A stretch of 64,000 bases of DNA, from contig NZ_BOMZ01000079.1 of the NCBI RefSeq assembly GCF_016862455.1, positions 1-64,000 of the forward strand. The letters run 5' to 3'. A model generated the notes under the pieces. The model was not told the DNA's origin and did not search any database. It saw nothing but the letters and a program-made list of their open reading frames with translations. Shown here piece by piece: positions 15,412-42,726 of the stretch; positions within the stretch are counted from its first letter, which is position 1; every line of letters begins with the position of its first letter. Position numbers and translations under genes: made by a program. The DNA comes from Actinoplanes utahensis. GTDB taxonomy: Bacteria; Actinomycetota; Actinomycetes; Mycobacteriales; Micromonosporaceae.

Positions 15412-16783
<1,372 letters not shown>

Positions 16784-16791
<8 letters not shown>

Positions 16792-17221
16792 CGTGGGCCA
16801 CCGGGACGCGGGCGGTGCGCAGCATGTCCAGCAGGGGCACCAGCGCGGCCACGTCCTGCAGGATGTGGTCGACGCCCAGCCGGTGGAGCCGGTCCAGGTC
16901 GGCGCTCTGCTTGTGGGCGCCGAGCGAGAGGTTGCCGCCGAGGATCACCGGCCGCCGCAGCCGGCCGCGGCCGCGCAGCGTCGGCAGGTCGTGCAGGTCC
17001 TCGTACGCGTGCCCGTTCAGGCTGCCGATCAGCACCGCCTCGGCGCCCGGCTCGTCGTCCAGGGCGTCGGCGAACTCGGTCAGCGGCGTGCAGACGCCCA
17101 GGTTCATCACGGTGAACCCGTGCGCGCGCAGGTGCCGGTCGATGAGCTGGTTGGCGACCGCGTGCGCGTCGCTGGCGGCCACGCCCAGGATCACGGTCCG
17201 TGCCGTCTCGAAGGTGATCAT
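16784..17221 (-). CDS. glmS: Glutamate mutase S subunit, cobalamin-binding
   Basis: A 145-residue B12-binding sigma subunit, partner of the E subunit that follows. The family motif DxHxxG(41)SxL(...)GG is present as SDAHAVAN, GSLNGH and GGNLSLG; the cobalt-ligating His is kept but the Gly of DxHxxG is Ala here. MITFETARTVILGVAASD is a normal N-terminus. The start ATG at 17221 overlaps the P450 stop as ATGA, and its own stop overlaps the E subunit start, so P450, S and E are one translationally coupled unit. The acidic loop sequences before and after the motif align well with clostridial GlmS by memory. The Gly to Ala change probably tolerates base-off binding but should be checked against other cluster-encoded homologues. 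Confidence 0.93.
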
Positions 17222-18444
17222 GCTGCCTCCCCGGGCTTCCGCTCGTCGAACCGGATCGGCAGCGCGTTCAGGAACCGGAAGTTGACGCTGTCGAGCCAGC
17301 TCGGCTCGCCGCCCTCCAGCCGCCAGTTCCGGGTGCGCTGCACCAGCCGGTGCATGGCGATCTCGATCTCGGTCAGGGCGAGCGCCGCGCCGAGGCAGAA
17401 GTGGATCCCGTGGCCGAACGACAGGTGGTCGGTGGCCTTGCGGGTCAGGTCGAGCCGGTCCGGGTCGGTGTACCGGGCCGGATCGTGGTTGCCGGCGCCG
17501 AGCACCAGCGTGACCGTGTCCCCACCGCGGATGTGCCGGCCGGCGACCTCGATGTCGGCGGTGGCGACCCGGGTGGTGAACTGGACCGAGCTGTCGTAAC
17601 GCAGGAACTCGTACGCCGCGTTGCCGGCCAGCTCCGGCCGCTGCCGCAGCAGGTCCGCCTGCTCCGGATGGTCCAGCAGGGCCAGCGCCGCGTTGCCGAC
17701 CAGATGCGTGGTGGTGGCCTGCCCGGCGTCGATGAGCAGCAGGAAGTTGGCGAACACCTCGTCCTCGGTGTACTCGCCGTCGCGCAGCTGCGCGCTGATC
17801 ATCTGGGTGAACAGGTCGTCGCCCGCGCCGCTGCGCCGCTGCTCGGCGCCGGCGTCGAAGACCTCGCGCAGGGCGGTCAGCCGGGACATCTCGGCCGACG
17901 ACTGGGAGAAGAACTCGGGCAGCAGGCCGCGCCAGTCCTTCAGCAGGTGCGCCGCGTGCGCAGGCACCCCGGCCAGCAGCGCGATCACGCCCCGGGTCAG
18001 CGGCTCGGAGAAGTCGTGGATGACGTCCATCCGGCCGGTCGGCACCACCCGGTCCAGCAGTTCGTCGGCCAGCTCCTCGATCATCGACCGGACGGTGCGG
18101 ATGAACCGCGGCGTCAGGCCCGGCCGGATCAGCCGGCGTAGCCGGGTGTGCTCCGGAGGCTCCCGGAACAGCATCATGTCCTGCAGGATCGCGGCCAGCG
18201 GCGCCATGTCCGCGCGGGACTCCGGCGGCAGCGCGGCGTGGAACTCGCCGATCCGCGCGCCGGAGAGCCGGTCGTCCTTGGAGAGCGCGGCGATGTCGGC
18301 GTGCGACAGCACCACCCAGCTGCGCATCAGGTCGTCCCAGTGGACCGGGTTGCGCCCGCGGAGTGCGGAATAGAATTCGTACGTTCGCCCGCTCCATTCC
18401 GGCTCGAAAAGGTCCAACAGGCTCTCGGTCTCGGTAATCGTCAT
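17218..18444 (-). CDS. Cytochrome P450
   Basis: A 408-residue soluble bacterial P450. The ExxR pair is likely in EFLRYDSS, and the haem loop is FGHGIHFCLGAALA with the axial Cys. The I-helix oxygen-activation motif reads DAGQATTTHL: the acidic residue usually before the Thr is Ala. Such changes occur in some P450s that act on carrier-bound amino acids or that take substrate-assisted protonation. The ATG at 18444 was chosen because AAAGGA precedes it at normal spacing and the product begins MTITETESLLDLFEPEW. It is first in the operon with the glutamate mutase, so hydroxylation of methylaspartate, of an aromatic residue on a carrier, or of the finished peptide are all possible. Confidence 0.92.
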   Translation of the reverse strand: MTITETESLLDLFEPEWSGRTYEFYSALRGRNPVHWDDLMRSWVVLSHADIAALSKDDRLSGARIGEFHAALPPESRADMAPLAAILQDMMLFREPPEHTRLRRLIRPGLTPRFIRTVRSMIEELADELLDRVVPTGRMDVIHDFSEPLTRGVIALLAGVPAHAAHLLKDWRGLLPEFFSQSSAEMSRLTALREVFDAGAEQRRSGAGDDLFTQMISAQLRDGEYTEDEVFANFLLLIDAGQATTTHLVGNAALALLDHPEQADLLRQRPELAGNAAYEFLRYDSSVQFTTRVATADIEVAGRHIRGGDTVTLVLGAGNHDPARYTDPDRLDLTRKATDHLSFGHGIHFCLGAALALTEIEIAMHRLVQRTRNWRLEGGEPSWLDSVNFRFLNALPIRFDERKPGEAA

Positions 18445-18667
18445 GTCGCGAAGTCCTTTGTCCCCGAGCTCAGTGACAGAGAATGTATAGACGCAAGGAT
18501 CTTCGCCCGGCAATCCTGGACCAGGTCCGGGAGCTGGTCTTTTAGCCCTGGTGGCGGCTTATTCATCGAGCGCTGAAAGTCGGTGACACCCGCTCCGGGC
18601 CGATGTTAGCTTTGCGGCACCAATTATCGAGCCGGGTGGCTTCCCTCATTTCATTGAGGTACCGAGA
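18445..18667. promoter_or_regulatory. Divergent promoter region, P450 operon and glycosyltransferases
   Basis: A 223-base gap between the leftward P450 operon and the rightward glycosyltransferase genes. It is noticeably less GC-rich than its surroundings (for example TTATTCATCG and CAATTATCGAG). GAGG at 18656-18659 is the likely ribosome binding site for the gene at 18668. I could not assign -35/-10 boxes with confidence. Confidence 0.5.
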
Positions 18668-19849
18668 ATGAGCAGATTCCTTTTCGTGACTTTCCCGATG
18701 CACGGCCATGTGGACCCGATGGTGCCGGTGGTGGCCGAGCTGGCCGCCCGGGGCGCCGGCGTCGACGTCGTCGCCGACCCCCGGTTCGCCGGCGCCTTCG
18801 CGGGCACCGGCGCGCGGGTCCACGAGATCGAGATCCCGGTCCTCGGCTCGGTTCCCGAAGGACTCGACGACCGGTCCGCCCGGTCCGCGCGCCGCCGCGC
18901 GAACGCCGACGTCCGGCGCCGCCGGGCCCGGCTCGCCGACGATCTGAGCGAGCGCTGGCCGGACCTGCGGCCGGACGCGGTGATCACCGACCTGTACGCG
19001 GAGTGGGGCGCGACCGCCGCCCGCCGCAACGGCACCCCGCTCGTCTCGTTCACCGGCACCCACGCGGTCAACCGGCGGATGGCCGTCGAGGGGGTCCGCC
19101 GGTCCGCCGGCCCGGTCGTGGCGGCGCTGCTGAACGCGACCGGCCTGATCCGGATCGCCCACCCGGCGCTGCGCGACCGCGCCGACCTGGCCCTCGCCAA
19201 CACCACCGACGAGCTGCAGCCGGACCGTGCCGGGTTCGGCGAGCGGCACCGCCTGGTCGGCCCGCTGCTGCGCGAGGACAGCATCGACGACCCCGGCCTG
19301 CCCTGGGACGCGATGGCCGCCGGCCCGGTCCTCTACGTCTCCTCCGGCACCGTGTACGAACGCGGCGCGGAGTTCTACCGGACCGTGGCGGACACCTTCG
19401 CCGACACCGAGTGGACGGTGGTGATGGCGACCGCCCGGACCGACCCGGCCGAGCTCGGCGCCCTTCCCGCCAACGTGCACGCCCGGCGCTACGTGCCGCA
19501 GAGCCGGGTGCTGCGGTCCAGCACCGTCTTCCTCACCCACGCCGGGATGAACTCGGTCCTCGACGCGATCCGCTGCGAGGTGCCGATGCTCACCGTGCCG
19601 TGCTCGCTCGACCAGAAGGGCACCGCCGACCACCTGGAGCGGCTGGGTGTCGGCGAGGTCGTCGGGCGGACGGTCGCGGTCGGCGATCTGCTCACGGCCG
19701 CGCGGCGCCTGGCGGCGGATCCGGAGGTACGGGCCACCCTGCGCCGCCTCGCCGCCCCGATGACCGCCGGCCGTCCCGGCGCGCGCGCCGCCGACGCGCT
19801 GGAGGAGTTCGCCGCGACCCGCCTGGCCGGCGTCGCGGCAGTCCGCTGA
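18668..19849 (+). CDS. MGT-family glycosyltransferase
   Basis: A 393-residue GT-B glycosyltransferase of the macrolide-glycosyltransferase (GT1) type, which moves an activated sugar to a small-molecule acceptor. It opens MSRFLFVTFPMHGHVDPM, where the second His is the usual catalytic base. The donor-binding region near 19530 has FLTHAGMNSVLDAI followed by EVPMLTVPCSLDQKGTA, the intact H-A-G-x-N-S pattern. Start ATG has GAGG eight bases before it. It is followed after 29 bases by a paralogue, so the pair looks like a tandem duplication. Proteins of this type in clusters either decorate the product or inactivate it for self-protection. Confidence 0.92.
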   Translation: MSRFLFVTFPMHGHVDPMVPVVAELAARGAGVDVVADPRFAGAFAGTGARVHEIEIPVLGSVPEGLDDRSARSARRRANADVRRRRARLADDLSERWPDLRPDAVITDLYAEWGATAARRNGTPLVSFTGTHAVNRRMAVEGVRRSAGPVVAALLNATGLIRIAHPALRDRADLALANTTDELQPDRAGFGERHRLVGPLLREDSIDDPGLPWDAMAAGPVLYVSSGTVYERGAEFYRTVADTFADTEWTVVMATARTDPAELGALPANVHARRYVPQSRVLRSSTVFLTHAGMNSVLDAIRCEVPMLTVPCSLDQKGTADHLERLGVGEVVGRTVAVGDLLTAARRLAADPEVRATLRRLAAPMTAGRPGARAADALEEFAATRLAGVAAVR

Positions 19850-19878
19850 CCACCCGCCCACCGACCGGAGGTTGCCCC

Positions 19879-29780: not shown

Positions 29781-29795
29781 GCAATGGGGAGTTCC

Positions 29796-31019
29796 ATGCG
29801 TATCCTGCTCGCCACCATCGGCTCGCGCGGCGACGTGCAGCCGCTGGTCGCCCTCGGCACGCGGCTGCGGGCCCTGGGGCATCAAGTACGGGTGTGCGCG
29901 CCGCCCGACTTCCAGGACTGGCTCACCGAGCTGGGCTTCGAGGCCGCCGCCATCGGCCCGCCGATGCGCCAGGCGCTGGCCACCAAGCCGCGCCCGCACT
30001 ACACGCCCGAGCAGTTGCGCCCGATGGCCGAACGGCAGATCGTCGCCCAGTTCACCAAGCTCGCCGAGGCCGCCCAGGGCTGTGACCTGCTGCTGTCGCA
30101 GACCCCGCAGTTCCCGGCCGCCCGCTCGGTGGCCGAGTCGCTGGGCATCCCGTACGTCTTCGCCGTCCTGAGCCCCAACCAGCTGCCCTCGCCGCACCAC
30201 GCGCCGCCGCCGATGCCGCTGTCCAACCAGGGGCCGGCCGGCCCCGGCGCCGACCACCGGGCACTCTGGGAGTCCGACCGCGAGTTCATGAACACGCTGT
30301 TCCTCGACGCGCTCAACAAACACCGGGCGGAGGTCGGCCTGCCGCTGGTCGACGACGTCCGCGGTCACGCCTTCACCGACCGCCCGTGGATCGCCGCCGA
30401 CCCCACCGTCGGGCCGTGGGTGGAGCCCGCCGACCTGGAGGTCTTCCAGCCCGGCGGCTGGTTCCTGCCGGACGACCGGCCGCTGCCCGCCGAGCTGGAG
30501 CGGTTCCTCGACGACGGCGAGCCGCCGCTCTACTTCGGGTTCGGCAGCATGCTGTCGGTCGAGGACGACCTCGGCGAGGTGATGGTCCGCACCGCCCGGG
30601 CGCTGGGCCGCCGGGCCGTGATCTCCCGGGGCTGGGCCGGTCTGCGGCTGCCCGACGACGGCCCGGACACCCTGGCGGTCGGCGAGGTGAACCTGCAGCG
30701 GCTGTTCCGCCGGGTCGCCGCCGTCGCCCACCCGGGCAGCGCGGGCACCACGCTGGTCAGCGCGATGGCCGGCGCGCCGCAGGTGCTCGTCCCGCAGATG
30801 TACGACCAGCACTACTGGGCCGCCCGGATCGAGACGCTCGGCGCCGGAGCCGCGCACGCGCCGGGCCGCCCGACCACCGCCTCGCTGACCGAGGCCCTGG
30901 AACGGGTCCTGCGCCCGGCCGTGGCCGCGACCGCCGCCACCGTCGCGGCCGCCGTCCGCCACGACGGGGCCGAACTCGCCGCACAGCACCTGACCACCGC
31001 CGACGCCCTCGCGGGCTGA
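29796..31019 (+). CDS. Vancomycin-type glycosyltransferase
   Basis: A 407-residue GT-B enzyme of the group that glycosylates vancomycin-class glycopeptides. It begins MRILLATIGSRGDVQPLVAL and has VRVCAPPDFQDW, hallmark segments of the GtfA-E proteins; the donor site reads HPGSAGTTLVSAMAGAPQVL followed by VPQMYDQHYWAARI, with HP for the usual HH. Known members move dTDP sugars to phenolic or beta-hydroxy positions of aromatic residues, which fits the Tyr-like adenylation domain in the terminal synthetase. ATG 29796 is favoured by homology and by GGGGAG at 29786-29791, although the spacing (4) is short; ATG 29784 is the alternative. It is followed by sulfotransferase and methyltransferase genes. 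Confidence 0.93.
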   Translation: MRILLATIGSRGDVQPLVALGTRLRALGHQVRVCAPPDFQDWLTELGFEAAAIGPPMRQALATKPRPHYTPEQLRPMAERQIVAQFTKLAEAAQGCDLLLSQTPQFPAARSVAESLGIPYVFAVLSPNQLPSPHHAPPPMPLSNQGPAGPGADHRALWESDREFMNTLFLDALNKHRAEVGLPLVDDVRGHAFTDRPWIAADPTVGPWVEPADLEVFQPGGWFLPDDRPLPAELERFLDDGEPPLYFGFGSMLSVEDDLGEVMVRTARALGRRAVISRGWAGLRLPDDGPDTLAVGEVNLQRLFRRVAAVAHPGSAGTTLVSAMAGAPQVLVPQMYDQHYWAARIETLGAGAAHAPGRPTTASLTEALERVLRPAVAATAATVAAAVRHDGAELAAQHLTTADALAG

Positions 31020-32992: not shown

Positions 32993-33415
32993 ATCACGTT
33001 TAATCAAATGATGTTCTTCGATTAATTGTCCCGGGATGTGATATCAATTCCCGGTCGGCCGCGGCCGGCGGTGATGCACGACGGGGGTCTCCGGGCGTTC
33101 TCCGCGAAGATCGCCAAGTTCGGGCGAATCGGTACGTCGATCGACGTCGATGCATAAGTCGAGCCTTAGGTGCAATCGGCGGTTCGGCCAGTCTTCAGTA
33201 GACGCTTGGGCCCAGCTTGGGGTCAGCGGTAGCGACGCCCTCAGTGACTTCGTACCCTCGATTTCGACACATGGGGGACTGACGTTTGTGGAGACGAACT
33301 CACCGGGGAGCATTGATCCGCCCGGGGAATGCGCCGCTACCCGACAATGGCCGTGGGATACGCCAGGCAAAGGTAGGCCGCCTCCCACAGGCCCGGCGAT
33401 AGGGCGGTGGTGCCT
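32993..33415. promoter_or_regulatory. Long leader/promoter region of the SARP gene
   Basis: More than 400 bases without a convincing gene precede the SARP. The first 60 are unusually AT-rich and contain nested dyads: TTAATC (33000-33005) with GATTAA (33020-33025), AATTG (33024-33028) with CAATT (33045-33049), and CCGGGA (33031-33036) with TCCCGG (33049-33054). A short open frame at 33150-33434 has no homology signs or ribosome binding site and runs into the SARP frame. I read this as a control region with a long untranslated leader. Confidence 0.5.
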
Positions 33416-36400
33416 ATGGACTTCCACGTATTAGGACCGTTGGAAGCGCTCGTCGACGGTCAACGGCTCGACATCGGCGGTAACCGACAACAGATCGTCC
33501 TGGCCAGCCTCATCCTCGAGGCCGGCTCGGTCATCTCGATCGATCGCCTGATGAAGGCGGTCTACGGGGAGAACCTCCCGTCCAGCGCCAGAGTGCAGGT
33601 CCAGATCTGCGTGTCCGCTCTGCGCCGACTGTTCGGGACGCACGGCCATCCCAAGATGATCGCCACCCGTAACCAGGGTTACGTCCTGGTGCCCGCCGGC
33701 ACCACCATCGACGTGCAGCGCTACGAACGCCTGATCCTGGAGGCCCGTGCCGCCGGCAACGTCGGCCGCAAGGAGGAGGCGACCACCCGTTATCGCGAGG
33801 CGCTCAGCCTGTGGCGGGGCCTGGCCCTGGAGGGTCTGGACAGCGAGCCGCTGCGGATGGTCGCCGACCGGCTGACCGAGCGCCGGCTCACGGTGAACGA
33901 GGACTGCATCGAGTTCGAGCTGGACCTCGGCCGGCATCGCGAGGTGATCGCGGAGCTGGGCGGCCTGGTGGCCGACCACCCGCTGCGCGAGCGTCTGCGC
34001 GGGCAGTTGATGCTGGCCCTCTACCGTTCCGGCCGGCAGGCCGAGGCGCTGGACGCCTATCGCGCGGCCCGCGCCGCGCTGATCGACGAGCTGGGCCTGG
34101 AGCCCAGCGAATGGCTCCAGCGGCTGGAACGGTCGATCCTGACCGCCGACTCCGCGCTGAGCGTGCCGGAGGTGGTGGTCGCCGCGGTCCCACCGGTGGT
34201 GCTGCCGCAGGAGCCGGCGGAGATCCTGCCGCCGCCGCTGATCATCGAGACGCTGGAGACGGTGGAGCCGGAGCCGGCCGCCGAAGCGGCGCCGCCGCCG
34301 CGCAACGACCCGGCGGTTCCGAGCATGCTGCCCACCGACATCGCCGACTTCACCGGTCGCAGCAAGCAGATCGACGCGATCCAGGTGCAACTGGCGATGG
34401 CGGCCGACGACCCCGGTCAGCTGGCCGTGCCGATCATCGTGGTGGCGGGCAAGCCGGGTATCGGCAAGACCGTGCTCGGCGTCCACGTCTCGCACCGGCT
34501 GGCGCCGCGTTATCCCGACGGCCAGCTCTTCGCCGACCTGCACGGCCGGGCCTCCAGCCGGGTCAGCCCGATGCAGATCCTGGAACGGTTCCTGCGCACG
34601 CTCGGGATCCCGGGCACCTCCATCCCCGACGGGCTGGAGGAACGCGCGGAGATGTACCGGGGCCTGCTGTCGAACCGGCGGATGCTCGTCGTGCTCGACA
34701 ACGTCGGCTCGGAATCCCAGGTGCTGCCGCTGCTGCCGGGCAATCCGGCGACCGCGGTGCTGGTCACCACCCGCAGCCGGCTCGGGGCGCTGCCCGGCGC
34801 CGTGCACGTCGACATCGACGTGCTCGACCCGCAGCAGTGCGTCGAGCTGCTCTCCCGGATCGCCGGCCCGGACCGGTTCCTGGCCGAGCCGGACGCCACC
34901 ACGATGCTCATCGACCTGTGCGGCCGGCTGCCGCTGGCGCTGCGGATCGCCGGCGCCCGGCTGTCGGCCCGCCCGCACTGGACGGTCGACCAGCTGGTCG
35001 AACGGCTGGAGAACGAGTCGCGCCGGCTCGACGAGCTGAACCACGGCGCGATGGGCATCCGGGTCAGCATCTCGATCACCTACGACAACATCAGCGACCC
35101 GGCTCGGCGGTTGTTCCGGCTCCTCGCCGTCCTCGACTGCACGTCCTTCTCCGTCTGGGTCTGCGCCGCGCTGCTCGACGAGCCGCTGCCGGACGCCCAC
35201 GACCTGCTGGACCAGCTGGTGGAGGCGCAGTTGGTGGAGCTGGTCGGCACCGAGCACGGCCCGCACCGGCAATACCGCTTCCACGACCTGATCCGGGTCT
35301 TCGCCCGGGAGCGGCTGGCCGCGGAGGAGCCGCTGGGCGAACGCAACGCGGCGCTGCACCGGGTCTTCGGCGGTCTGCTCTTCCTCGCCGAGGAGGCCCA
35401 CCGCCGGTTGTACGGCCAGAGCAACCGGCAACTGCACAGCCCGGCCCCGCGCTGGGAGTTCCCGCCCCGGTCCACCGACCGGATGCTGGTCGAACCGCTC
35501 GCCTGGTTCGAACGGGAACGGCAGCTGATCAGCTCGTCCGTTCGCCAGGCCGCCAAGGTCGGCGCCATCGAGTTCTGCTGGGACCTGGCGGTCACCGCGG
35601 TCACCCTGTTCGACTCCCGGGTCTATCTCAACGACTGGCGGGAGACGCACGAGGTGGCGCTCGGCGCGGTCCGGCAGGCCGGTGACCGGCTCGGCCAGGC
35701 CGTGGTCCTCTATTCGCTGGGCTCCCTGAACATCGTGGAGAAGCGGTTCACCGACGCCCGGCACCGGCTCGAGGACGCCGCCCAGCTGTTCCACGTCGTC
35801 GGCGAGGATCACGGCGAGGCCCTGGCCAGCCGCAACCTCGCCTATCTGGAACGGATCAACGGCAACCTGGCCGAGGCCGCCCGTCGGTACGAGCAGATCC
35901 TCCCGGTGCTGCGCCGGGTCGGCGACCTGGCCGCGTCGGCGTACGTGCTGCACAGCATGGCGCAGGTCGAGCTGGAGCGGGAGAACGCCGAGGGCGCCAA
36001 GGCGATGCTCGTCGAGGCCCTGGAACTCAGCCGCCGGGTCGGCAGCCGGCGGATCGAGGCGCAGGCGCTCTACCACCTCGGCGACGCCCACCTGCAGGCC
36101 GGTGAGGCCGACCGGGCGGTGAACGTCTTCGACGAGGCGCTGTCGGTGGTCCGCGACCTGGGCGATCCGATCGGGGAGGCGTACGCCCGTCTGGGTCTCG
36201 GTATGGCGTACACCCGCGGCGGCGACTGGGACAAGGCCGACGCGGCGCTGGCCAGCGCGCAGCAGATCGCCACCGACAACGGCGAGTTGCTGGTCGACGC
36301 GCGAGCCGAGTTCAGCAAGGGGGAACTGGCGCTGGTCGGCGGGAAACCGCACGCGGCGGTCACCCACCTGCAACGGGCGCTGGACAAGTTCCGGGAGATC

Positions 36401-36484
36401 AACGCGCCGGTCCTCGAGGAGCGGGTGCTGACGATGCTCAGCGGGGCGTACAGCGCGATGTCGCGCAGCGTCAGCCGTTCTTAA
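33416..36484 (+). CDS. AfsR-like SARP regulator with NB-ARC and TPR domains
   Basis: A 1022-residue pathway activator. Residues 1-90 form the OmpR-like DNA-binding domain (MDFHVLGPLEALVDG, ASLILEAGSVISIDRLMKAV, ATRNQGYVL); the bacterial activation domain follows to about 240 (GLALEGLDSEPLR, LYRSGRQAEALDAYRAAR). An acidic/proline linker leads to an NTPase with P-loop VVAGKPGIGKTVLG, Walker B RMLVVLDNVG and a TR motif VLVTTRSRLGALPG. C-terminal TPRs run from about 750 to 1000. Start ATG 33416 is preferred over GTG 33407/33410 because it gives the standard MDFHVLGPLE. Codon 6 is TTA, so translation may depend on a late-acting leucyl tRNA. It is the likely main switch of the cluster. Confidence 0.94.
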   Translation: MDFHVLGPLEALVDGQRLDIGGNRQQIVLASLILEAGSVISIDRLMKAVYGENLPSSARVQVQICVSALRRLFGTHGHPKMIATRNQGYVLVPAGTTIDVQRYERLILEARAAGNVGRKEEATTRYREALSLWRGLALEGLDSEPLRMVADRLTERRLTVNEDCIEFELDLGRHREVIAELGGLVADHPLRERLRGQLMLALYRSGRQAEALDAYRAARAALIDELGLEPSEWLQRLERSILTADSALSVPEVVVAAVPPVVLPQEPAEILPPPLIIETLETVEPEPAAEAAPPPRNDPAVPSMLPTDIADFTGRSKQIDAIQVQLAMAADDPGQLAVPIIVVAGKPGIGKTVLGVHVSHRLAPRYPDGQLFADLHGRASSRVSPMQILERFLRTLGIPGTSIPDGLEERAEMYRGLLSNRRMLVVLDNVGSESQVLPLLPGNPATAVLVTTRSRLGALPGAVHVDIDVLDPQQCVELLSRIAGPDRFLAEPDATTMLIDLCGRLPLALRIAGARLSARPHWTVDQLVERLENESRRLDELNHGAMGIRVSISITYDNISDPARRLFRLLAVLDCTSFSVWVCAALLDEPLPDAHDLLDQLVEAQLVELVGTEHGPHRQYRFHDLIRVFARERLAAEEPLGERNAALHRVFGGLLFLAEEAHRRLYGQSNRQLHSPAPRWEFPPRSTDRMLVEPLAWFERERQLISSSVRQAAKVGAIEFCWDLAVTAVTLFDSRVYLNDWRETHEVALGAVRQAGDRLGQAVVLYSLGSLNIVEKRFTDARHRLEDAAQLFHVVGEDHGEALASRNLAYLERINGNLAEAARRYEQILPVLRRVGDLAASAYVLHSMAQVELERENAEGAKAMLVEALELSRRVGSRRIEAQALYHLGDAHLQAGEADRAVNVFDEALSVVRDLGDPIGEAYARLGLGMAYTRGGDWDKADAALASAQQIATDNGELLVDARAEFSKGELALVGGKPHAAVTHLQRALDKFREINAPVLEERVLTMLSGAYSAMSRSVSRS

Positions 36485-36500
36485 AAATCGGCACAGCCGA

Positions 36501-36544
36501 AAAGGCCGCCGCACCGATTCTTTCGCATCGGTGCGGCGGCCTTT
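36501..36544. terminator. Bidirectional terminator hairpin
   Basis: Eighteen-base perfect arms (36501-36518 and 36527-36544) around the loop TCTTTCGC, flanked by A-run on the left and T-run on the right. It serves the SARP gene and the convergent small secreted peptide gene. Confidence 0.92.
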
Positions 36545-36562: not shown

Positions 36563-36757
36563 TTACCAGGGGAAGTTGTCCAGCGGGGCGTCGGAGGGGC
36601 CGTCGGTTCCCGGCGCGGGGGTGCTGGTGGCCGCCGGCGCGGTCGTGGGGGCGTCACCCTCAGCGGCGTATGCCGAACCAGTGCCGGTGACGGCGATCGT
36701 GATCGCGGTGGCGGCGGCGAGGACGATACGAGTGGTCCAACGGGCGAAGATACGCAT
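36563..36757 (-). CDS. Small secreted Pro/Thr/Ala-rich peptide
   Basis: A 64-residue predicted secreted protein I do not recognise. The N-terminus MRIFARWTTRIVLAAATAIT continues to a signal-peptidase site at AYA-AEG (around residue 31), leaving a mature chain of about 33 residues rich in Pro, Thr, Ala and Asp that ends PSDAPLDNFPW. There is no Cys and no known fold. GAGAGG lies upstream of the ATG and a bidirectional terminator lies at its 3' end, so it has its own transcript. Codon usage matches the window. Possibly an exported signal or envelope peptide; function unknown. Confidence 0.7.
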   Translation of the reverse strand: MRIFARWTTRIVLAAATAITIAVTGTGSAYAAEGDAPTTAPAATSTPAPGTDGPSDAPLDNFPW

Positions 36758-36821: not shown

Positions 36822-36922
36822 CGTTATGGATGCCGCCTATCGCAGCGTTATCAACGCCCTTTGGTCATGGCATCATCGGCGATATCGCCGGACGATAACG
36901 GGATGGAAACCCGGCGATAACG
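36822..36922. promoter_or_regulatory. Cluster of GATAACG motifs and a palindrome
   Basis: GATAACG occurs at 36894-36900 and 36916-36922 (22 bases apart, two helical turns); the inverted form CGTTATC is at 36846-36852 and CGTTATG at 36822-36828. A 14-base palindrome, CGGCGATATCGCCG, is at 36877-36890. The region lies between the divergent small peptide gene and the transthyretin-like/leuA pair. Suggests operator sites for a cluster regulator. Confidence 0.55.
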
Positions 36923-36982
36923 CGATGCCGGACCATTGCGCCAATGGGAGTCACCCACGAACCGGACAGCAAGGCCCACGCC

Positions 36983-37348
36983 ATGAGAATCTCTGCACAG
37001 GCCGTCGACGTCGTCTACGGGCGGCCGGCAGCAGGAGTACGTGTCCGCATCGATCGCAAGATCACCGACGTCTACGGGAACGCGGACGAGTGGGTGACCG
37101 TCGCGCAGGCCGAGACGGACGGCGACGGCTGCATCGATCTGCAGGACTGGACGGTGGATCATCGGCTCGGGCCGGGACCGTACCGGCTCGTGTTCGACAG
37201 CGACGCCTACTTCGCCACGCTCGGGCTGAGCGCCGCGTACAAGGAGGTCTCGGTGGAGGTCCGGCTGACCGACGACTCCGACGGATGCCAGGTCGAGGTT
37301 CGGCTGGCGCCGTACTCCTACTCGATGTTTTTCGGACTCCGGGGCTGA
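36983..37348 (+). CDS. Transthyretin/HIUase-like protein lacking catalytic residues
   Basis: A 121-residue protein with the fold signature of 5-hydroxyisourate hydrolase: VDVVYGRPAAGVRVRID at the start, ETDGDGCIDLQDW in the middle, GPYRLVFDSDAYFATLG and a C-terminal strand pair. In true enzymes the N-terminus has a catalytic His in a THVLD-like segment; here the matching segment is AQAVD. The second His region reads CQVEVRLAPYSYS, and the C-terminal YRGS tetrapeptide is replaced by MFFGLRG. It should therefore not hydrolyse hydroxyisourate. ATG 36983 is chosen for family fit; ATG 36944 would add 13 residues. It is 30 bases before leuA and shares its regulatory gap, so a cluster role such as binding or an altered reaction is possible. 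Confidence 0.72.
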   Translation: MRISAQAVDVVYGRPAAGVRVRIDRKITDVYGNADEWVTVAQAETDGDGCIDLQDWTVDHRLGPGPYRLVFDSDAYFATLGLSAAYKEVSVEVRLTDDSDGCQVEVRLAPYSYSMFFGLRG

Positions 37349-37378: not shown

Positions 37379-39073
37379 ATGTCGGCACCATTCCGCCGTG
37401 CGGTGGAGCGTTACCGTCGTCCGGCCGCGGAGGCGTTCCCGGACCGCTTGTGGCCCTCCCGGACCATCACCACGGCGCCACGGTGGCTCTCGACCGACCT
37501 GCGCGACGGCAACCAGTCCCTGGTCGATCCGATGAGCCCGGAGCGGAAGATGACCATGTTCCGGCTGCTGACCGGGATGGGGTACAAGGAGATCGAGGTC
37601 GGGTTCCCGGTCGCGAGCCAGGACGACCACGACTTCCTGCGGATGCTCATCGAGCGGGACCTGATCCCGGACGACGTCCGGATCTCGGTGCTCGTGCAGG
37701 CCCGCGACGAGCTGATCCGGCGGACCGTGGAGAGCCTGGCCGGCGCGCGGAAGGCGACCATCCACCTCTACAACGCCACCTCGCCGCTGTTCCGCCGGGT
37801 GGTCTTCGGGATGGACCGCGCCGAGTGCAAGGAGATGGCCGTCCAGGGCACCCGCCTGATGCTCAAGTACGCCGACCGCACCCTGGCCGACTGCGACCTG
37901 GGCTTCCAGTACTCGCCGGAGCTGTTCAACGACACCGAGCTCGACTTCTCCCTGGAGGTCTGCGAGGCGGTGATGGACGTGTGGCAGCCGGAGACGGGCC
38001 GCCCCATCACGCTGAACTTCCCGACCACGGTGGAACGGACGATGCCGAACGTCTTCGCCGACCAGATCGAGTACATGGACCGCGGCCTGAGCCGCCGCCG
38101 GCACGTCTGCCTGTCGGTGCACCCGCACAACGACCGGGGCACCGGGGTCGCGACCGCCGAGATGGCGCTGCTGGCCGGGGCCGAGCGGATCGAGGGCTGC
38201 CTGCTCGGCAACGGGGAACGGGCCGGCAACGTCGACCTGGTCACCCTCGGGCTCAACCTGTTCAGCGCGGGCATCGACCCGGGCATCGACTTCTCCGACC
38301 TCAACGAGGTCCGCCGGGTGGTCGAGCACTGCACCGACATCCCCGTGCACCCCCGGCACCCGTACGCCGGCGACCTCGTCTACACCGCCTTCTCCGGCTC
38401 CCACCAGGACGCCATCAAGAAGGGCTTCGACGATCGCAAGCGCACCGGCGACCCGCGCTGGGAGATTCCCTACCTGCCGATCGACCCGCGTGACGTCGGC
38501 CGCACCTATGAGTCGATCGTGCGGATCAACAGCCAGTCGGGCAAGGGCGGCGTCGCGTACGTGATCAGCTCCCGGCTCGGCCTCAACATGCCCCGCGACC
38601 TGCAGATCGAGTTCGCCGCCCTGGTGCAGGCCCGGGCCGACGCCGAGGGCGGCCAGATCACCGGCGACCGGGTCGTCGAGCTCTTCGAGGCCGCGTACGC
38701 CACCCGGCCGCTGCTGCGGGTGCCGTTGAAACTGCGTACCGCCGTGCCCGTCGTCCTGCACATCGACGGCGCCGCCTTCGAGGTCGGCGCCGCCCGCACC
38801 GAGACCCTCGACCGGGTCCGGCAGAGCCTCGCCGCCTGGCGGGTCGACCTGCGTGCCGTGCACCGCACCGGAACCGGGCTGGCCGGGCACGACGGCACCG
38901 CCGTCTACGCCGAGATGCAGGCCGGCGACCGCACCCTGTGGGGTGTCGGGGTCGACGGCGACGTCGAGACGGCGATCCTGGCGGCGGTCCGTGCGGCGGC
39001 CCACCGGATCGGCCGCACCCGTGCCCGGACCCGCGATACCGCGCTCCTCCCGCACGCCGCCGACGCTGCATAA
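37379..39073 (+). CDS. leuA: 2-isopropylmalate synthase
   Basis: A 564-residue alpha-isopropylmalate synthase, which condenses acetyl-CoA with 2-oxoisovalerate to start leucine synthesis. The catalytic TIM barrel has STDLRDGNQSLVDPM, VGFPVASQDDHDF, SVHPHNDRGTGVA and GCLLGNGERAGNVD; the C-terminal regulatory domain follows from about residue 430. GGGGGAAGAC precedes the ATG. Position inside the cluster, downstream of regulatory repeats, suggests a dedicated copy that raises leucine or branched-chain supply for the peptide or for a branched fatty acyl starter. Whether it has lost leucine feedback cannot be told by eye. A housekeeping copy cannot be excluded. Confidence 0.92.
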   Translation: MSAPFRRAVERYRRPAAEAFPDRLWPSRTITTAPRWLSTDLRDGNQSLVDPMSPERKMTMFRLLTGMGYKEIEVGFPVASQDDHDFLRMLIERDLIPDDVRISVLVQARDELIRRTVESLAGARKATIHLYNATSPLFRRVVFGMDRAECKEMAVQGTRLMLKYADRTLADCDLGFQYSPELFNDTELDFSLEVCEAVMDVWQPETGRPITLNFPTTVERTMPNVFADQIEYMDRGLSRRRHVCLSVHPHNDRGTGVATAEMALLAGAERIEGCLLGNGERAGNVDLVTLGLNLFSAGIDPGIDFSDLNEVRRVVEHCTDIPVHPRHPYAGDLVYTAFSGSHQDAIKKGFDDRKRTGDPRWEIPYLPIDPRDVGRTYESIVRINSQSGKGGVAYVISSRLGLNMPRDLQIEFAALVQARADAEGGQITGDRVVELFEAAYATRPLLRVPLKLRTAVPVVLHIDGAAFEVGAARTETLDRVRQSLAAWRVDLRAVHRTGTGLAGHDGTAVYAEMQAGDRTLWGVGVDGDVETAILAAVRAAAHRIGRTRARTRDTALLPHAADAA

Positions 39074-39086
39074 GCGCAGGTCAATG

Positions 39087-39108
39087 GCGATAGGCAAGCG
39101 ATAAGGGT
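39087..39108. promoter_or_regulatory. GCGATA direct repeat with 11-base period
   Basis: GCGATAGGCAA (39087-39097) is followed directly by GCGATAAGGGT (39098-39108), one helical turn apart, about 90 bases before the LAL regulator gene. It resembles the GATAACG sites at 36.9 kb and the 11-base periodicity of SARP sites. Confidence 0.5.
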
Positions 39109-39195
39109 ACGACAACGCAGCCCCGTAGCGTCCTTGGTGAAGGTAGACGTACAGGGCGCTCGGACACAGGGCACCCGCGGGAAGGAGGGAAGACC

Positions 39196-41970
39196 ATGGG
39201 ACTGGTGGAACGAGACGACGCTATGGCGATGCTCGACAGCCTGCTGGCCGCCGCAGTGGCCGGGAAGGGCCGCGTCGCGATGGTGACCGGCGCCGCCGCC
39301 ACCGGCAAGACCGAGCTGTTGAACACGTTCGCCGAACGTGTCGTCGACCTGAACGGCCTGGCCATCACCGCGGTCGGCTCGCGCTCCGAGCAGGATCTGC
39401 CGCTCGGCGTGTTCGGTCAGCTGCTGATGGACGCGCCGCTGGTCGCCGAGGAGAGCCGGCGCGCCATGGACCTGCTGTCCGAGGGCGCCCAGAGCATCCC
39501 GCCCGGCCCGGACGGCGCCGCCCGGATGGACCCGCAGATCATGCACGGCCTCTGCACCATCCTGCTCGACCTGTCGCAGCGGTACCCGCTCGTCATCGTC
39601 ATCGACGACATCGACCAGGCCGACCCGGCGTCGATCCTGTGCCTTTCGTACCTGGCCCGCCGGGTGCGGTTCGCGCCGATGCTCGCGCTGTTCAGCCACT
39701 CGGCGCACGCCTGGTCGGACGAGGCGACGTACGAGCTGGAAGGGTTGAGCCGGGCCCCGCTCGGCGCGCACCTGACCATCTCCACCCTGTCGCCGGCGGG
39801 CGTGGCGGCGATGGCCGCCGACGCCCTCCCGGCCGGCGACGCGCACCGCGTCGCCACCCGGTGGCACGAGCTCAGTGGCGGAAACCCGCTGCTCATCACC
39901 GGTCTTATCGACGATTATCGGCAGACCCTCGCCGAGGGCGGCACCCCGGACGAGGAACCGATCGTCGGCGGCCACTTCGCCCGTGCCGTGGTCTCCTGCC
40001 TGCACCGGGCCGACCCCCGACTGCGGCGGGTCGCCCGCGGGGCGGCGATCCTGCCCGGCCCGGCGTTCCTCAGCCGGCTGATCGACGCCGACCCCGCGCT
40101 GGTCAGCCAGGCCGTCCGGGCCCTCACCGCCGCCGGGATCCTGCGCAACGGCGAGTTCCGGCACGCGGTGGCCCGCGAGGCGGTGCTCGCCGAGATCGCC
40201 GACGCCGAACGCCGTGAGCTGCACGGGCGGGCGGCGGTGCTGGCGCACGACGGCGGCGCGTCCAGCCAGGTGGTCGGTGACCAGCTGCTCGGCGCGGGCC
40301 GGGCCGACGAGCCCTGGGGCGTCGCGGTGCTCGAGGACGCGGCCCGGCAGGCGCTGCGCGAGGGCCGGGTCGACGCGGCGATGAGCTACCTGCGGCTCGC
40401 CTGGCAGAACTGCTCCGACGAACAGCGCCGCGCGAAGATCATGACGACCATGCTGCGGGCCGCCTGGCGGATCAACCCGGGCAGCTCCACCACCTATCTG
40501 CCCGAGCTGACCGCGGCCCTGCGCCGCGGCCACCTGCGCAGCGGCGACGCCCTGGCGCTGACCAAGGCGCTGCTCTGGAACGGGCAGTTCACCGACGCGA
40601 AGGACGTGTTCGAGCACCTCAACGCCGCTACCGGCGATCTCGACCAGGAGAGCCGCAGCGAACTGGCGATCGCCCGGCCGCTGCTGCGGGTCACCTACCC
40701 GTCGTTCTTCGACGTGCTGCGTCAGCCGCCCGCGCACCTGCCGGCGGTGTCGACGGTCGCCTCCGGGCACCGGCTGGAGGCGGCGTCCGCGCTGGCCACC
40801 GTCCTCACCCACGGCCCGTCCGAGAAGATCGCGGCCGCGGTCGGCCGGATCCTGCACAACTCCCGGCTCGACGAGATGAGCCTGGACACCGTGGAGAGCG
40901 CGCTGCTCGCCCTCACCTACGGCGGCTGGTGCGACCAGGCGGCGTCCTGGTGCGCGATGTTCGTCGAGGAGGCCGTCACCCGGCGCGCCCCGAGCCGGCT
41001 GGCCCGCCTGTCGGCGATCAGCGCGGAGATCTCGCTGCGGCTCGGTGACCTGCCGGCCGCCGTCCGGCACGCGCAACTCGCCCTGAACGCCATGCCCGCC
41101 TCCAGCTGGGGTGTCGCGGTCGGCGCCGCGGTCGCGCCGATGATGATCGCGGCCACCGCGATGGGCCGCTACGACCTGGTCCGCGAGCAGCTGGACCAGC
41201 CGGTGCCGGAGGAGATGTTCCAGACCCGGCACGGCCTGCACTACCTGCAGGCGCGCGGCCGGTACAGCATGGCGATCGGGCAGCTGCCGCTCGCGCTGCG
41301 TGACTTCCAGCGCTGCGGTGAGCTGGCCGCGCGGTGGCACCTGGACGTGCCGGGCCTGGTCGCGTGGCGGGTGGACGCCGCGGAGGCGCTGCTGCGGCTG
41401 GGCCGCCCCGACGAGGCGCACAGTCTCGTCGAGGACCAGCTCAACCGGTGCGGCAAGAACAACGCCCGGGCCTGGTCGATGGCGATGCGGGTGTTCGCGG
41501 CGACCAGCCAGCTGCGGCACCGCCCGATGTTCCTGCGGCAGGCGGTGGACCTGCAGAGCGGCGACGAGTACGAGCAGGCCCGCGCCCTGGTCGACCTCAC
41601 CGAGGCGTACCAGTCGCTGGGGGAGCAGCGGCGGGCCGGGATGATCGCCCGGCGGGCCCGCGCCCTGGCCGAGAAGATCGAGGCCGGGCCGCTGCTGCAG
41701 GCGCTCAAGCCGGAGCTCGGCGGCGACGACGCGGAGATGCCGGCGCAGTCGCTGAACCCGGCCCCGGGCACGGCGACCCTCAGCGAGGCCGAGCGGCGCG
41801 TCGCCGTGCTGGCCGCCGACGGCTACACCAACCGGGAGATCTCCAAGAAGCTGTTCATCACGGTCAGCACCGTGGAGCAGCACCTGACCCGGATCTACCG
41901 CAAGCTCAACGTGACCCGGCGTACCGACCTGCCGGCGCACTACCTGCTGGACCACGCGATCAGCGCCTGA
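39196..41970 (+). CDS. LAL-type LuxR-family regulator
   Basis: A 924-residue large ATP-binding LuxR regulator. The N-terminal ATPase has MVTGAAATGKTELLNTFAER (P-loop GAAATGKT) and Walker B YPLVIVIDDIDQAD; the middle is a long helical-repeat sensor region; the C-terminus is a LuxR helix-turn-helix, LSEAERRVAVLAADGYTNRE then STVEQHLTRIYRKLNVTRR. AAGGAGGGA lies before the ATG. It is likely the second pathway-specific activator, sitting just after leuA and before a transcription terminator. The 11-base repeat upstream may be its own control site or that of the SARP. Confidence 0.94.
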   Translation: MGLVERDDAMAMLDSLLAAAVAGKGRVAMVTGAAATGKTELLNTFAERVVDLNGLAITAVGSRSEQDLPLGVFGQLLMDAPLVAEESRRAMDLLSEGAQSIPPGPDGAARMDPQIMHGLCTILLDLSQRYPLVIVIDDIDQADPASILCLSYLARRVRFAPMLALFSHSAHAWSDEATYELEGLSRAPLGAHLTISTLSPAGVAAMAADALPAGDAHRVATRWHELSGGNPLLITGLIDDYRQTLAEGGTPDEEPIVGGHFARAVVSCLHRADPRLRRVARGAAILPGPAFLSRLIDADPALVSQAVRALTAAGILRNGEFRHAVAREAVLAEIADAERRELHGRAAVLAHDGGASSQVVGDQLLGAGRADEPWGVAVLEDAARQALREGRVDAAMSYLRLAWQNCSDEQRRAKIMTTMLRAAWRINPGSSTTYLPELTAALRRGHLRSGDALALTKALLWNGQFTDAKDVFEHLNAATGDLDQESRSELAIARPLLRVTYPSFFDVLRQPPAHLPAVSTVASGHRLEAASALATVLTHGPSEKIAAAVGRILHNSRLDEMSLDTVESALLALTYGGWCDQAASWCAMFVEEAVTRRAPSRLARLSAISAEISLRLGDLPAAVRHAQLALNAMPASSWGVAVGAAVAPMMIAATAMGRYDLVREQLDQPVPEEMFQTRHGLHYLQARGRYSMAIGQLPLALRDFQRCGELAARWHLDVPGLVAWRVDAAEALLRLGRPDEAHSLVEDQLNRCGKNNARAWSMAMRVFAATSQLRHRPMFLRQAVDLQSGDEYEQARALVDLTEAYQSLGEQRRAGMIARRARALAEKIEAGPLLQALKPELGGDDAEMPAQSLNPAPGTATLSEAERRVAVLAADGYTNREISKKLFITVSTVEQHLTRIYRKLNVTRRTDLPAHYLLDHAISA

Positions 41971-42039: not shown

Positions 42040-42726
42040 TCAGCGAGCGCTGAGCGTGGGCTGGCGGGCCTGCGCCGGAACGGCGATGGCGGTGATCACC
42101 AGGTCCTTCTCCACCAGCCAGCGGCCGCTGAAACCGGTGAGGCTGCGGCCGTGCAGCCGCGGCCCGGTGACCTTGAGCTCGGCGGTGAAGGTGGCCGTGC
42201 CCGGGTGGAAGGTCACCGAGGCGTCCTCGAAGTCCAGCCACCGCTCGGCGAGCGGGTACCACGCCTTGTACACCGACTCCTTGGCGCTGAACAGCATCCG
42301 GTCCCAGTGCAGGCCGGGATGCTCCCGCTCGAGCAGCATGATCCGGTCGCGTTCCTCGGGCAGCGAGACCGCCTCGAACACGCCGTCCGGCATGGTCTCG
42401 TGCGGCTCCGCGTCGATGCCGACCGTGCTGACGTGCGCCGCCGGCGCGGCGACGGCCGCGCGGTACCCGGCGCAGTGCGTGATGCTGCCGACCAGCCCGT
42501 CCGGCCACTGCGGCTCACCGCGTGGCCCGACCAGGATCGGCGCCGGCCGGCGGCCCATCCGCTGCATGGCCTGGCGGGCGCACCAGCGCCCGGTGGTGAA
42601 CTCGGCCCGCCGTTTCGCCACCGCCTTGCTGACGAGGAACTCCTCCTCCGGGAAGAGCGTCGCCTGGGGCGGGTCCTCGAACGTGTCGACCGCGATGACA
42701 CCGGCCGGCAGGATGCTCTCGATCAT
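42040..42726 (-). CDS. 4'-phosphopantetheinyl transferase
   Basis: A 228-residue Sfp/EntD-type phosphopantetheinyl transferase, which converts apo carrier domains to their active form using CoA. Motifs are complete: GSITHCAGYRAAV, STVGIDAEPHE with the Mg-binding acids, and FSAKESVYKAWYP. It opens MIESILPAGVIAVDTFEDPP. It is the last gene with a clear link to the NRPS and probably primes the PCP domains at 0.3, 4.9 and 8.0 kb. I take it as the right edge of the cluster, though the exact border is a judgement. Confidence 0.95.
   Translation of the reverse strand: MIESILPAGVIAVDTFEDPPQATLFPEEEFLVSKAVAKRRAEFTTGRWCARQAMQRMGRRPAPILVGPRGEPQWPDGLVGSITHCAGYRAAVAAPAAHVSTVGIDAEPHETMPDGVFEAVSLPEERDRIMLLEREHPGLHWDRMLFSAKESVYKAWYPLAERWLDFEDASVTFHPGTATFTAELKVTGPRLHGRSLTGFSGRWLVEKDLVITAIAVPAQARQPTLSAR

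Follow-up and report, generated by a model that had tools for sequence, protein, structure and literature searches.

The question raised by this locus is what a transthyretin-fold protein without the catalytic residues of hydroxyisourate hydrolase (HIUase) does directly before a leuA gene, in a stretch of DNA that also carries NRPS genes. The window, i.e. the whole stretch that was analysed, comprises 64,000 nucleotides of Actinoplanes utahensis (positions 1 to 64,000 of contig NZ_BOMZ01000079.1). The original prediction proposed a tailoring or binding protein for the product of the peptide cluster in which the gene lies. Our analysis indicates that the protein has probably been recruited into a regulatory module that consists of a SARP, a peptide pheromone and a LuxR regulator, in an operon with leuA2. 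The features of the window on which the argument draws are as follows.

33407 to 36484, plus strand: large SARP regulator of the AfsR type, 1025 aa, with a DNA-binding domain, BTAD, NB-ARC ATPase and a C-terminal TPR superhelix (Pfam BTAD at 142.6 bits, Trans_reg_C, NB-ARC, TPR_12).
36488 to 36536, no strand given: terminator-like hairpins where the SARP and small-ORF genes converge (consensus scan, 3 found against 0.4 expected).
36563 to 36757, minus strand: small divergent ORF, 64 aa, with a signal-peptide-like N-terminus, a P/T/A-rich linker and a C-terminal ...LDNFPW; candidate precursor of a secreted peptide signal (design conserved across loci).
36837 to 36852, minus strand: candidate SARP operator directed at the small ORF, made of GATA repeats at a distance of 11 bp (also kept in the four nearest orthologues).
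36893 to 36921, plus strand: candidate SARP operator directed at the transthyretin gene, made of CGATAAC direct repeats at a distance of 22 bp (phased repeats across loci).
36983 to 37348, plus strand: transthyretin-fold protein of 121 aa that lacks the catalytic residues of HIUase (PF00576, TIGR02962 score, residue table, AlphaFold2, Foldseek, VIA-align).
37379 to 39073, plus strand: second 2-isopropylmalate synthase, leuA2, without detectable LeuA_dimer (Pfam; the other LeuA of the genome is 55% identical).
39088 to 39116, plus strand: candidate SARP operator before luxR, three heptamers CGATAGG, CGATAAG and CGACAAC with an 11-bp period (repeat scan).
39196 to 41970, plus strand: large LuxR-type (LAL) regulator with an AAA_16 ATPase and a C-terminal GerE HTH (Pfam; homologue in 36 of 44 loci).
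42040 to 42726, minus strand: 4'-phosphopantetheinyl transferase, often found near the module (20 of 44 loci have a homologue).

The transthyretin gene is one open frame; an in-frame ATG is also present at 36944, but the homologue alignments begin at 36983. Its product matches the whole Pfam profile PF00576 with 61.8 bits (cut-off 25.3), and its score of 58.2 bits for the HIUase equivalog TIGR02962 lies under the cut-off of 87.45. An AlphaFold2 model based on an alignment of 17 sequences (mean pLDDT 83.9, pTM 0.78) has the bacterial transthyretin-like proteins 2gpz and 2igl as top Foldseek matches, with E of about 1e-10. VIA-align gave Z values up to 18.6, the best structural matches being bacterial HIUase-type proteins and vertebrate transthyretin. 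The profile match and the structure prediction thus agree on the fold that had been claimed from the letters. The HIUase catalytic motif is formed by His9, His98 and a C-terminal YRGS, and it was checked against the comparison rows of our active-site table, in which 44 members of the clade were set against 41 other PF00576-type rows (44 tried, 3 filtered out). His9 is present in all 41 comparison rows and in 0 of the 44 clade members, 40 of which have Gln instead. At position 98 His is kept by all 41 comparison rows but by just 3 of the 44 clade members, and the Pro that follows is replaced by Gln in 38 of 44. The Arg of YRGS is found in 39 of 41 comparison rows and only 1 of 44 clade members, with Phe in 39. 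It may be noted that the Arg49 column is less telling because only 21 of the 41 comparison rows have Arg there. At His9, His98 and the YRGS tail the window protein reads Q, Q and FFG, so that the predicted loss of the catalytic residues holds for the window and for nearly the whole clade. The dN/dS of the gene lies between 0.04 and 0.37 (14 pairs), which is purifying selection and rules out a pseudogene. Since the replacement residues are conserved and selection is purifying, the pocket appears remodelled and not decaying.

The clade was found in 17 of 67 genomes of the genus including that of the window, the other 16 proteins being 48 to 73% identical; the remaining transthyretin matches in the genus are clearly separate (31 to 42% identity). 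More members come from the same family and from records named Sphaerisporangium, Planomonospora and Verrucosispora, and they are also present in 62 of the 341 genomes from a second family, which the data suggest to be Streptosporangiaceae. At least two clade-like records were among the matches listed for a plasmid collection. Set 1 was made of 44 loci of 10.5 to 20 kb each, analysed by gene calling and BLAST. L072 and L073 (34% and 27% identical, gene without an adjacent SARP homologue) lie outside the clade and were excluded from the 44, as were duplicate contigs from the analysis (L074, L075, L077-L079, L081, L083, L084, L090, L257, L261, L262, L264). A held-out search gave 65 matches, 8 of them already in set 1; 40 of the other 57 were fetched and 36 non-duplicate loci counted, including near relatives of the set-1 genera.

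The constant partner of the gene is the SARP. A homologue was found in 43 of 44 set-1 loci, the contig of the exception ending 182 nt upstream of the transthyretin gene, and in all 17 loci of the genus. On the held-out side it lies within 2.5 kb in 34 of 36 loci (L268, counted here, at only 33% identity); in L253 no SARP match was found in the 735 nt up to the contig edge, and the best match in L279 is 3.2 kb away. The SARP gene is in tandem upstream in Actinoplanes/Micromonospora-type loci and divergent in most loci of the Sphaerisporangium/Nonomuraea (Streptosporangiaceae) type. A LuxR homologue occurs in 25 of 36 held-out loci. The original prediction had taken absence of the gene from orthologous clusters as evidence against itself; on checking, the gene was retained there. 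Nine regions do have close SARP homologues without a transthyretin gene, and in L209, L214 and L216 the SARP and LuxR genes are present with neither transthyretin gene nor peptide.

The original prediction overlooked the small ORF, which is located on the opposite strand between the SARP and transthyretin genes and has the product MRIFARWTTRIVLAAATAITIAVTGTGSAYAAEGDAPTTAPAATSTPAPGTDGPSDAPLDNFPW. The design common to the loci is a hydrophobic start, a P/T/S/A linker and a C-terminal W motif such as GNWPWG, DNWPWT, SQPWG, DTKWG, GDMPWD or NTPWG. It is kept across two actinobacterial families, in precursors of 33 to 89 aa that lie beside the SARP gene in most loci. Such an ORF was found in 38 of 44 set-1 loci, 36 by a rule that itself includes the W motif and two on further inspection, namely L135 (between transthyretin and SARP genes on the same strand) and L087 (33 aa). 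In the held-out set 28 of 36 loci have it, 26 by the rule fixed beforehand and two, L273 and L278, farther away. By rule and further inspection no peptide was found in L069, L070, L071, L129 and L130 of set 1, with L080 set aside, nor in the testable held-out loci L260, L268, L269, L274, L276, L279 and L282; the transthyretin-SARP pair can therefore exist without it. Conversely, L211 (minus strand from 8221) has a SARP and a small ORF ending in ...DGDTPWG without transthyretin gene, leuA or phased GATA repeats, which means that SARP-peptide pairs also occur without the rest of the module. As a control, 20 regions were scanned that contain 21 of the 24 further SARP-domain matches in the genome of the window; they gave 2 hits, none of the W-motif type, under a filter that additionally demanded hydropathy and excluded overlap with large ORFs. 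Among all small ORFs in these loci, 2.1% (67 of 3169) end in [PQKI]W.{0,2}. The putative secretion signal was judged by hydropathy, and the hydrophobic stretches of several Sphaerisporangium precursors are weak. Some precursors carry the core in tandem: DSPWE five times in L221 (Nonomuraea gerenzanensis), L290 and L291, GDPWD five times in L289, GDPWG three times in L288 and DTWPWT three times in L058.

The gap between the small ORF and the transthyretin gene contains phased repeats. GATA[AGC] direct repeats 22 or 11 bp apart were found in 29 of 36 such gaps (the set-1 loci with a rule-found peptide) against 0.2 expected from first-order Markov shuffles; among the held-out loci, 26 of 36 have them before the transthyretin gene, against 0.3 expected. 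They are missing from 7 of 36 and 10 of 36 loci, respectively. An 11-bp repeat is present in 12 of 21 gaps between leuA and luxR, where 0.07 would be expected, whereas none of 45 regions upstream of SARP genes has a phased pair. The exact form CGATARN5CGATAR has only 2 sites in the 9.4-Mb genome, one of which is the luxR site. The published AfsR site is CGTT(T/C)ATCGNN, and heptamers with an 11-bp period are a SARP signature (PMC10972967, in excerpt). The repeats suggest with fair support that the SARP controls the promoters of the peptide gene, of transthyretin-leuA2 and of luxR.

As for what could read the peptide, we ran Mantel-type tests on 47 and 45 loci (52 and 54 minus near-identical ones), in which the correlations remove shared ancestry only in part. 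Over the 47 loci the peptide core co-varies with the TPR part of the SARP at 0.23 to 0.32 when the DNA-binding domain, NB-ARC, LuxR or transthyretin protein is accounted for, whereas its correlation with each of these given the TPR part is -0.10 to 0.08; the DNA-binding part retains 0.20 with the peptide given LuxR. The transthyretin protein co-varies with LuxR at 0.25, with TPR at 0.22 and with LeuA at -0.02 (45 loci). As peptide receptor it is not favoured, its partial correlation given TPR being 0.00. The model of the TPR part (pLDDT 92.2) consists of helical repeats and resembles the TPRs of LGN solved with peptide partners; RapF ranks lower among the matches, as does a kinesin light chain in complex with a tryptophan-acidic peptide. 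By sequence the same part matches the AfsR structures 8k60 and 8jke, and RapH weakly. Co-variation and TPR likeness together make the SARP TPR domain a likelier receptor than the transthyretin protein, and we infer with fair support that the peptide is the signal read by this domain.

A portable module of the AfsR type may be proposed from these elements, in the order SARP, small secreted W-motif peptide, transthyretin protein with leuA2, and LuxR. The precursor would be exported and cut to its C-terminal 5 to 7 residues around the tryptophan. When abundant, the peptide would act on the TPR domain of the SARP, as peptides do on RRNPP receptors. The SARP would then bind the GATAAC direct repeats, whose phasing is one or two helical turns, and drive the divergent peptide gene, giving positive feedback, as well as the transthyretin-leuA2 operon and luxR, and LuxR in turn would serve the neighbouring biosynthetic genes. 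LeuA2, without a leucine-sensing domain, might supply precursor. The TRANSTHYRETIN protein (36983 to 37348) is encoded by the first gene of this putative SARP-driven operon and is also kept without leuA2. Its own part is the weakest step: most likely it belongs to the circuit as a cytosolic protein that binds a ligand or a regulator, and it would act as an accessory of the regulatory module without hydrolysing HIU. We tentatively propose, as a possibility rather than an expectation, that these loci form a new actinobacterial class of peptide quorum sensing, in which W-motif pheromones, some in five copies, address the TPR domain of AfsR-type SARPs and the transthyretin protein is a binding or adaptor part.

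Several known systems share parts of this arrangement. Large SARPs combine SARP/BTAD, NB-ARC and TPR in about 1000 aa (PMC10972967, in excerpt), the architecture that the window SARP shows by Pfam. In the AfsR-afsS system of Streptomyces a large SARP likewise lies beside a small gene with SARP-type direct repeats, and the AfsR site, CGTT(T/C)ATCGNN in the excerpted PMC10972967, resembles CGTTATCG of the window. By contrast, the small gene here is divergent, signal-peptide-like and has the W motif; the module also adds transthyretin gene, leuA2 and luxR. With RRNPP/RRNPPA systems of Firmicutes it has in common a small, putatively secreted propeptide encoded next to the gene of a TPR receptor. 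The criteria excerpted from PMC10075063 are a Sec-secreted propeptide of 10 to 100 aa, its gene beside the receptor gene, and a receptor of 250 to 500 aa with TPRs. Propeptide size, adjacency and TPRs agree with these, but the receptor is a SARP-NB-ARC-TPR protein of 1025 aa, so that the module may work like RRNPP without being a member. RRNPP precursors with repeated copies of the mature peptide are known (PMC9765709, in excerpt). The host of the module belongs to Actinomycetota, whose signals are typically small molecules (PMC10075063, in excerpt). The PimR-PimM cascade also leads from a SARP to a LuxR protein through three heptamers with 4-nt spacers, and NosP is a SARP that responds to peptide-derived ligands (both PMC10972967, in excerpt). 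PimM is a PAS-LuxR, whereas the LuxR of the module is a LAL; the NosP ligand is the thiopeptide of its own cluster or an intermediate, not a dedicated exported peptide. In a literature library with few subscription journals, none of the papers listed deals with SARP modules that contain a transthyretin-like protein or a secreted peptide of their own, and the excerpts of PMC9838390 and PMC11019849 concern subjects other than such a module.

Against a pheromone, the small ORF might be a regulatory target in the manner of AfsS, or encode a structural or antimicrobial peptide for export, and the SARP would sense phosphorylation, ATP or a metabolite. AfsR does activate its small neighbour afsS and is kinase-controlled (PMC10972967, in excerpt), and the leader and linker of the peptide evolve fast: dN/dS is 0.40 to 1.50 except for two pairs, one identical and the other with no synonymous change, some of the rule-picked starts having been moved to a later start codon for this calculation. 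But the signal-like N-terminus, the conserved short C-terminal core, the preferential co-variation with TPR and the tandem core copies in at least five loci are harder to place under it, and we regard it as possible though unlikely. The pheromone reading has a practical side. To our knowledge, the activating input of large SARPs, and hence of many silent antibiotic clusters, is mostly unknown. If the W-motif peptide is the cognate signal, a synthetic 6-mer could switch on silent clusters in Actinoplanes, Micromonospora, Sphaerisporangium and Nonomuraea.

The transthyretin protein might instead be a re-tuned enzyme that opens or isomerises another ring, e.g. of a lactone or acid derived from LeuA2 products, its gene being a metabolic one of the SARP regulon. 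leuA2 begins 30 nt past the transthyretin stop codon, in agreement with the adjacency seen originally, and 12 of 67 genomes of the genus have leuA2 at a strict threshold (E 1e-205, under which the leuA fragment of G031 falls), all 12 with the transthyretin gene. The enzyme has the HMGL-like catalytic domain and IPMS_D2 in Pfam; LeuA_dimer (PF08502) gave no match in it at E 1e-3, as compared to 90.7 bits in the other LeuA of the genome, and leuA2 probably encodes a feedback-insensitive supply enzyme. The conserved replacements themselves (Gln in 40 and 38, Phe in 39 of the 44) would also suit a new activity. In the plasmid NZ_CP108815.1 of Streptomyces sp. NBC_00868 (L220) the transthyretin-like gene lies 2 nt after an NRPS gene, with a convergent SARP gene overlapping its 3' end, and the W-motif peptide was not found. 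Genes for leuB/C/D-like proteins, a pyruvate-carboxyltransferase and an aminotransferase are nearby, a set suggestive of a pathway to a chain-extended amino acid, and this arrangement keeps the enzyme alive as an explanation. On the other hand, leuA was found in 33 of 44 set-1 and 26 of 36 held-out loci only. Where it is missing (11 of 44), the transthyretin gene stays with the SARP in 10 of the 11, e.g. L063, L064, L066, L067 and L069-L071, and leuA coupling as the core function is weakened. No co-variation with LeuA is left once the other genes are accounted for, the His98 position varies within the clade (Q, R, H, L, D, W, S), and a new conserved acid-base pair was not noticed among the 44. 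The enzyme is the main rival reading, but doubtful as compared to a binding protein in the SARP circuit.

Still less survives of the tailoring or binding protein for this cluster's NRPS product. Pfam confirms NRPS genes in the window, together with MbtH, penicillin-amidase, glycosyltransferase, sulfotransferase and methyltransferase genes, and NRPS-type domains lie near some other loci, as does the NRPS gene of Streptomyces sp. NBC_00868. BLAST with the C and A domains of the window NRPS found 2 of 80 loci, an undercount given that Pfam also detects adenylation or condensation domains in L052, L063 and L070; the flanks searched were 6 to 10 kb, and even the NRPS of the window is beyond the 20 kb that were covered. 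However, the biosynthetic neighbours differ by locus, with DUF1702 in 11 of 80, acyl-CoA carboxylase subunits in 16 of 80, a PKS in L055 and NRPS-type genes in some, and the identical gene order is also found next to DUF1702/FG-GAP genes. This argues against a tailoring role for one product, and since the constant partner is the SARP we do not retain that role, whether tied to leuA or to the NRPS, as the main reading and rate it as very improbable. DUF1702 genes were seen near the module in L128, L131-L135, L272, L284, L288, L289 and L291, with FG-GAP genes in some; such genes are known from enediyne cassettes.

That the gene encodes a normal HIUase, or what is left of one in decay, as the PF00576 match and the annotation of the Streptomyces relative might suggest, is hardly credible with His9 lost in 44 of 44 members, low dN/dS and an intact HIUase elsewhere in the genome. 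The latter is a second PF00576 gene (111.7 bits, usual HIUase residues) whose neighbours we take by eye to be OHCU decarboxylase and urate oxidase, and the window paralogue is thus not needed for uric-acid breakdown. The window protein shares fold and full-length homology with HIUase (TIGR02962) and transthyretin (PF00576), but the clade has another set of conserved residues and sits in a SARP module, not in a uric-acid cluster. Vertebrate transthyretin is an HIUase turned into a carrier, and structures titled as HIUase/transthyretin ancestors (7kcn and 7kjj) are among the matches of the window protein. If the binding role is true, these loci would show that bacteria, too, have turned an HIUase-fold enzyme to a non-catalytic use, as happened with vertebrate transthyretin. 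The public record of the Streptomyces relative labels a gene of this kind as hydroxyisourate hydrolase, which is a trap for annotation.

Some further observations were made in passing. L221 is NZ_LT559118.1, filed as a plasmid though 11.85 Mb long, from Nonomuraea gerenzanensis, the A40926 producer; its five-copy DSPWE precursor (minus strand from 11732) adjoins SARP, transthyretin-like, leuA and luxR genes. In L051 a gene near the module (16010 to 19864) has a Tc-toxin A TcB-binding domain (PF18276). The window has a penicillin-amidase-like gene at 9273 to 11699. At 29784 to 31019 it encodes a glycosyltransferase related to the rifamycin-inactivating Rgt (376 bits, under the equivalog cut-off of 800), which adjoins the sulfotransferase and methyltransferase genes.
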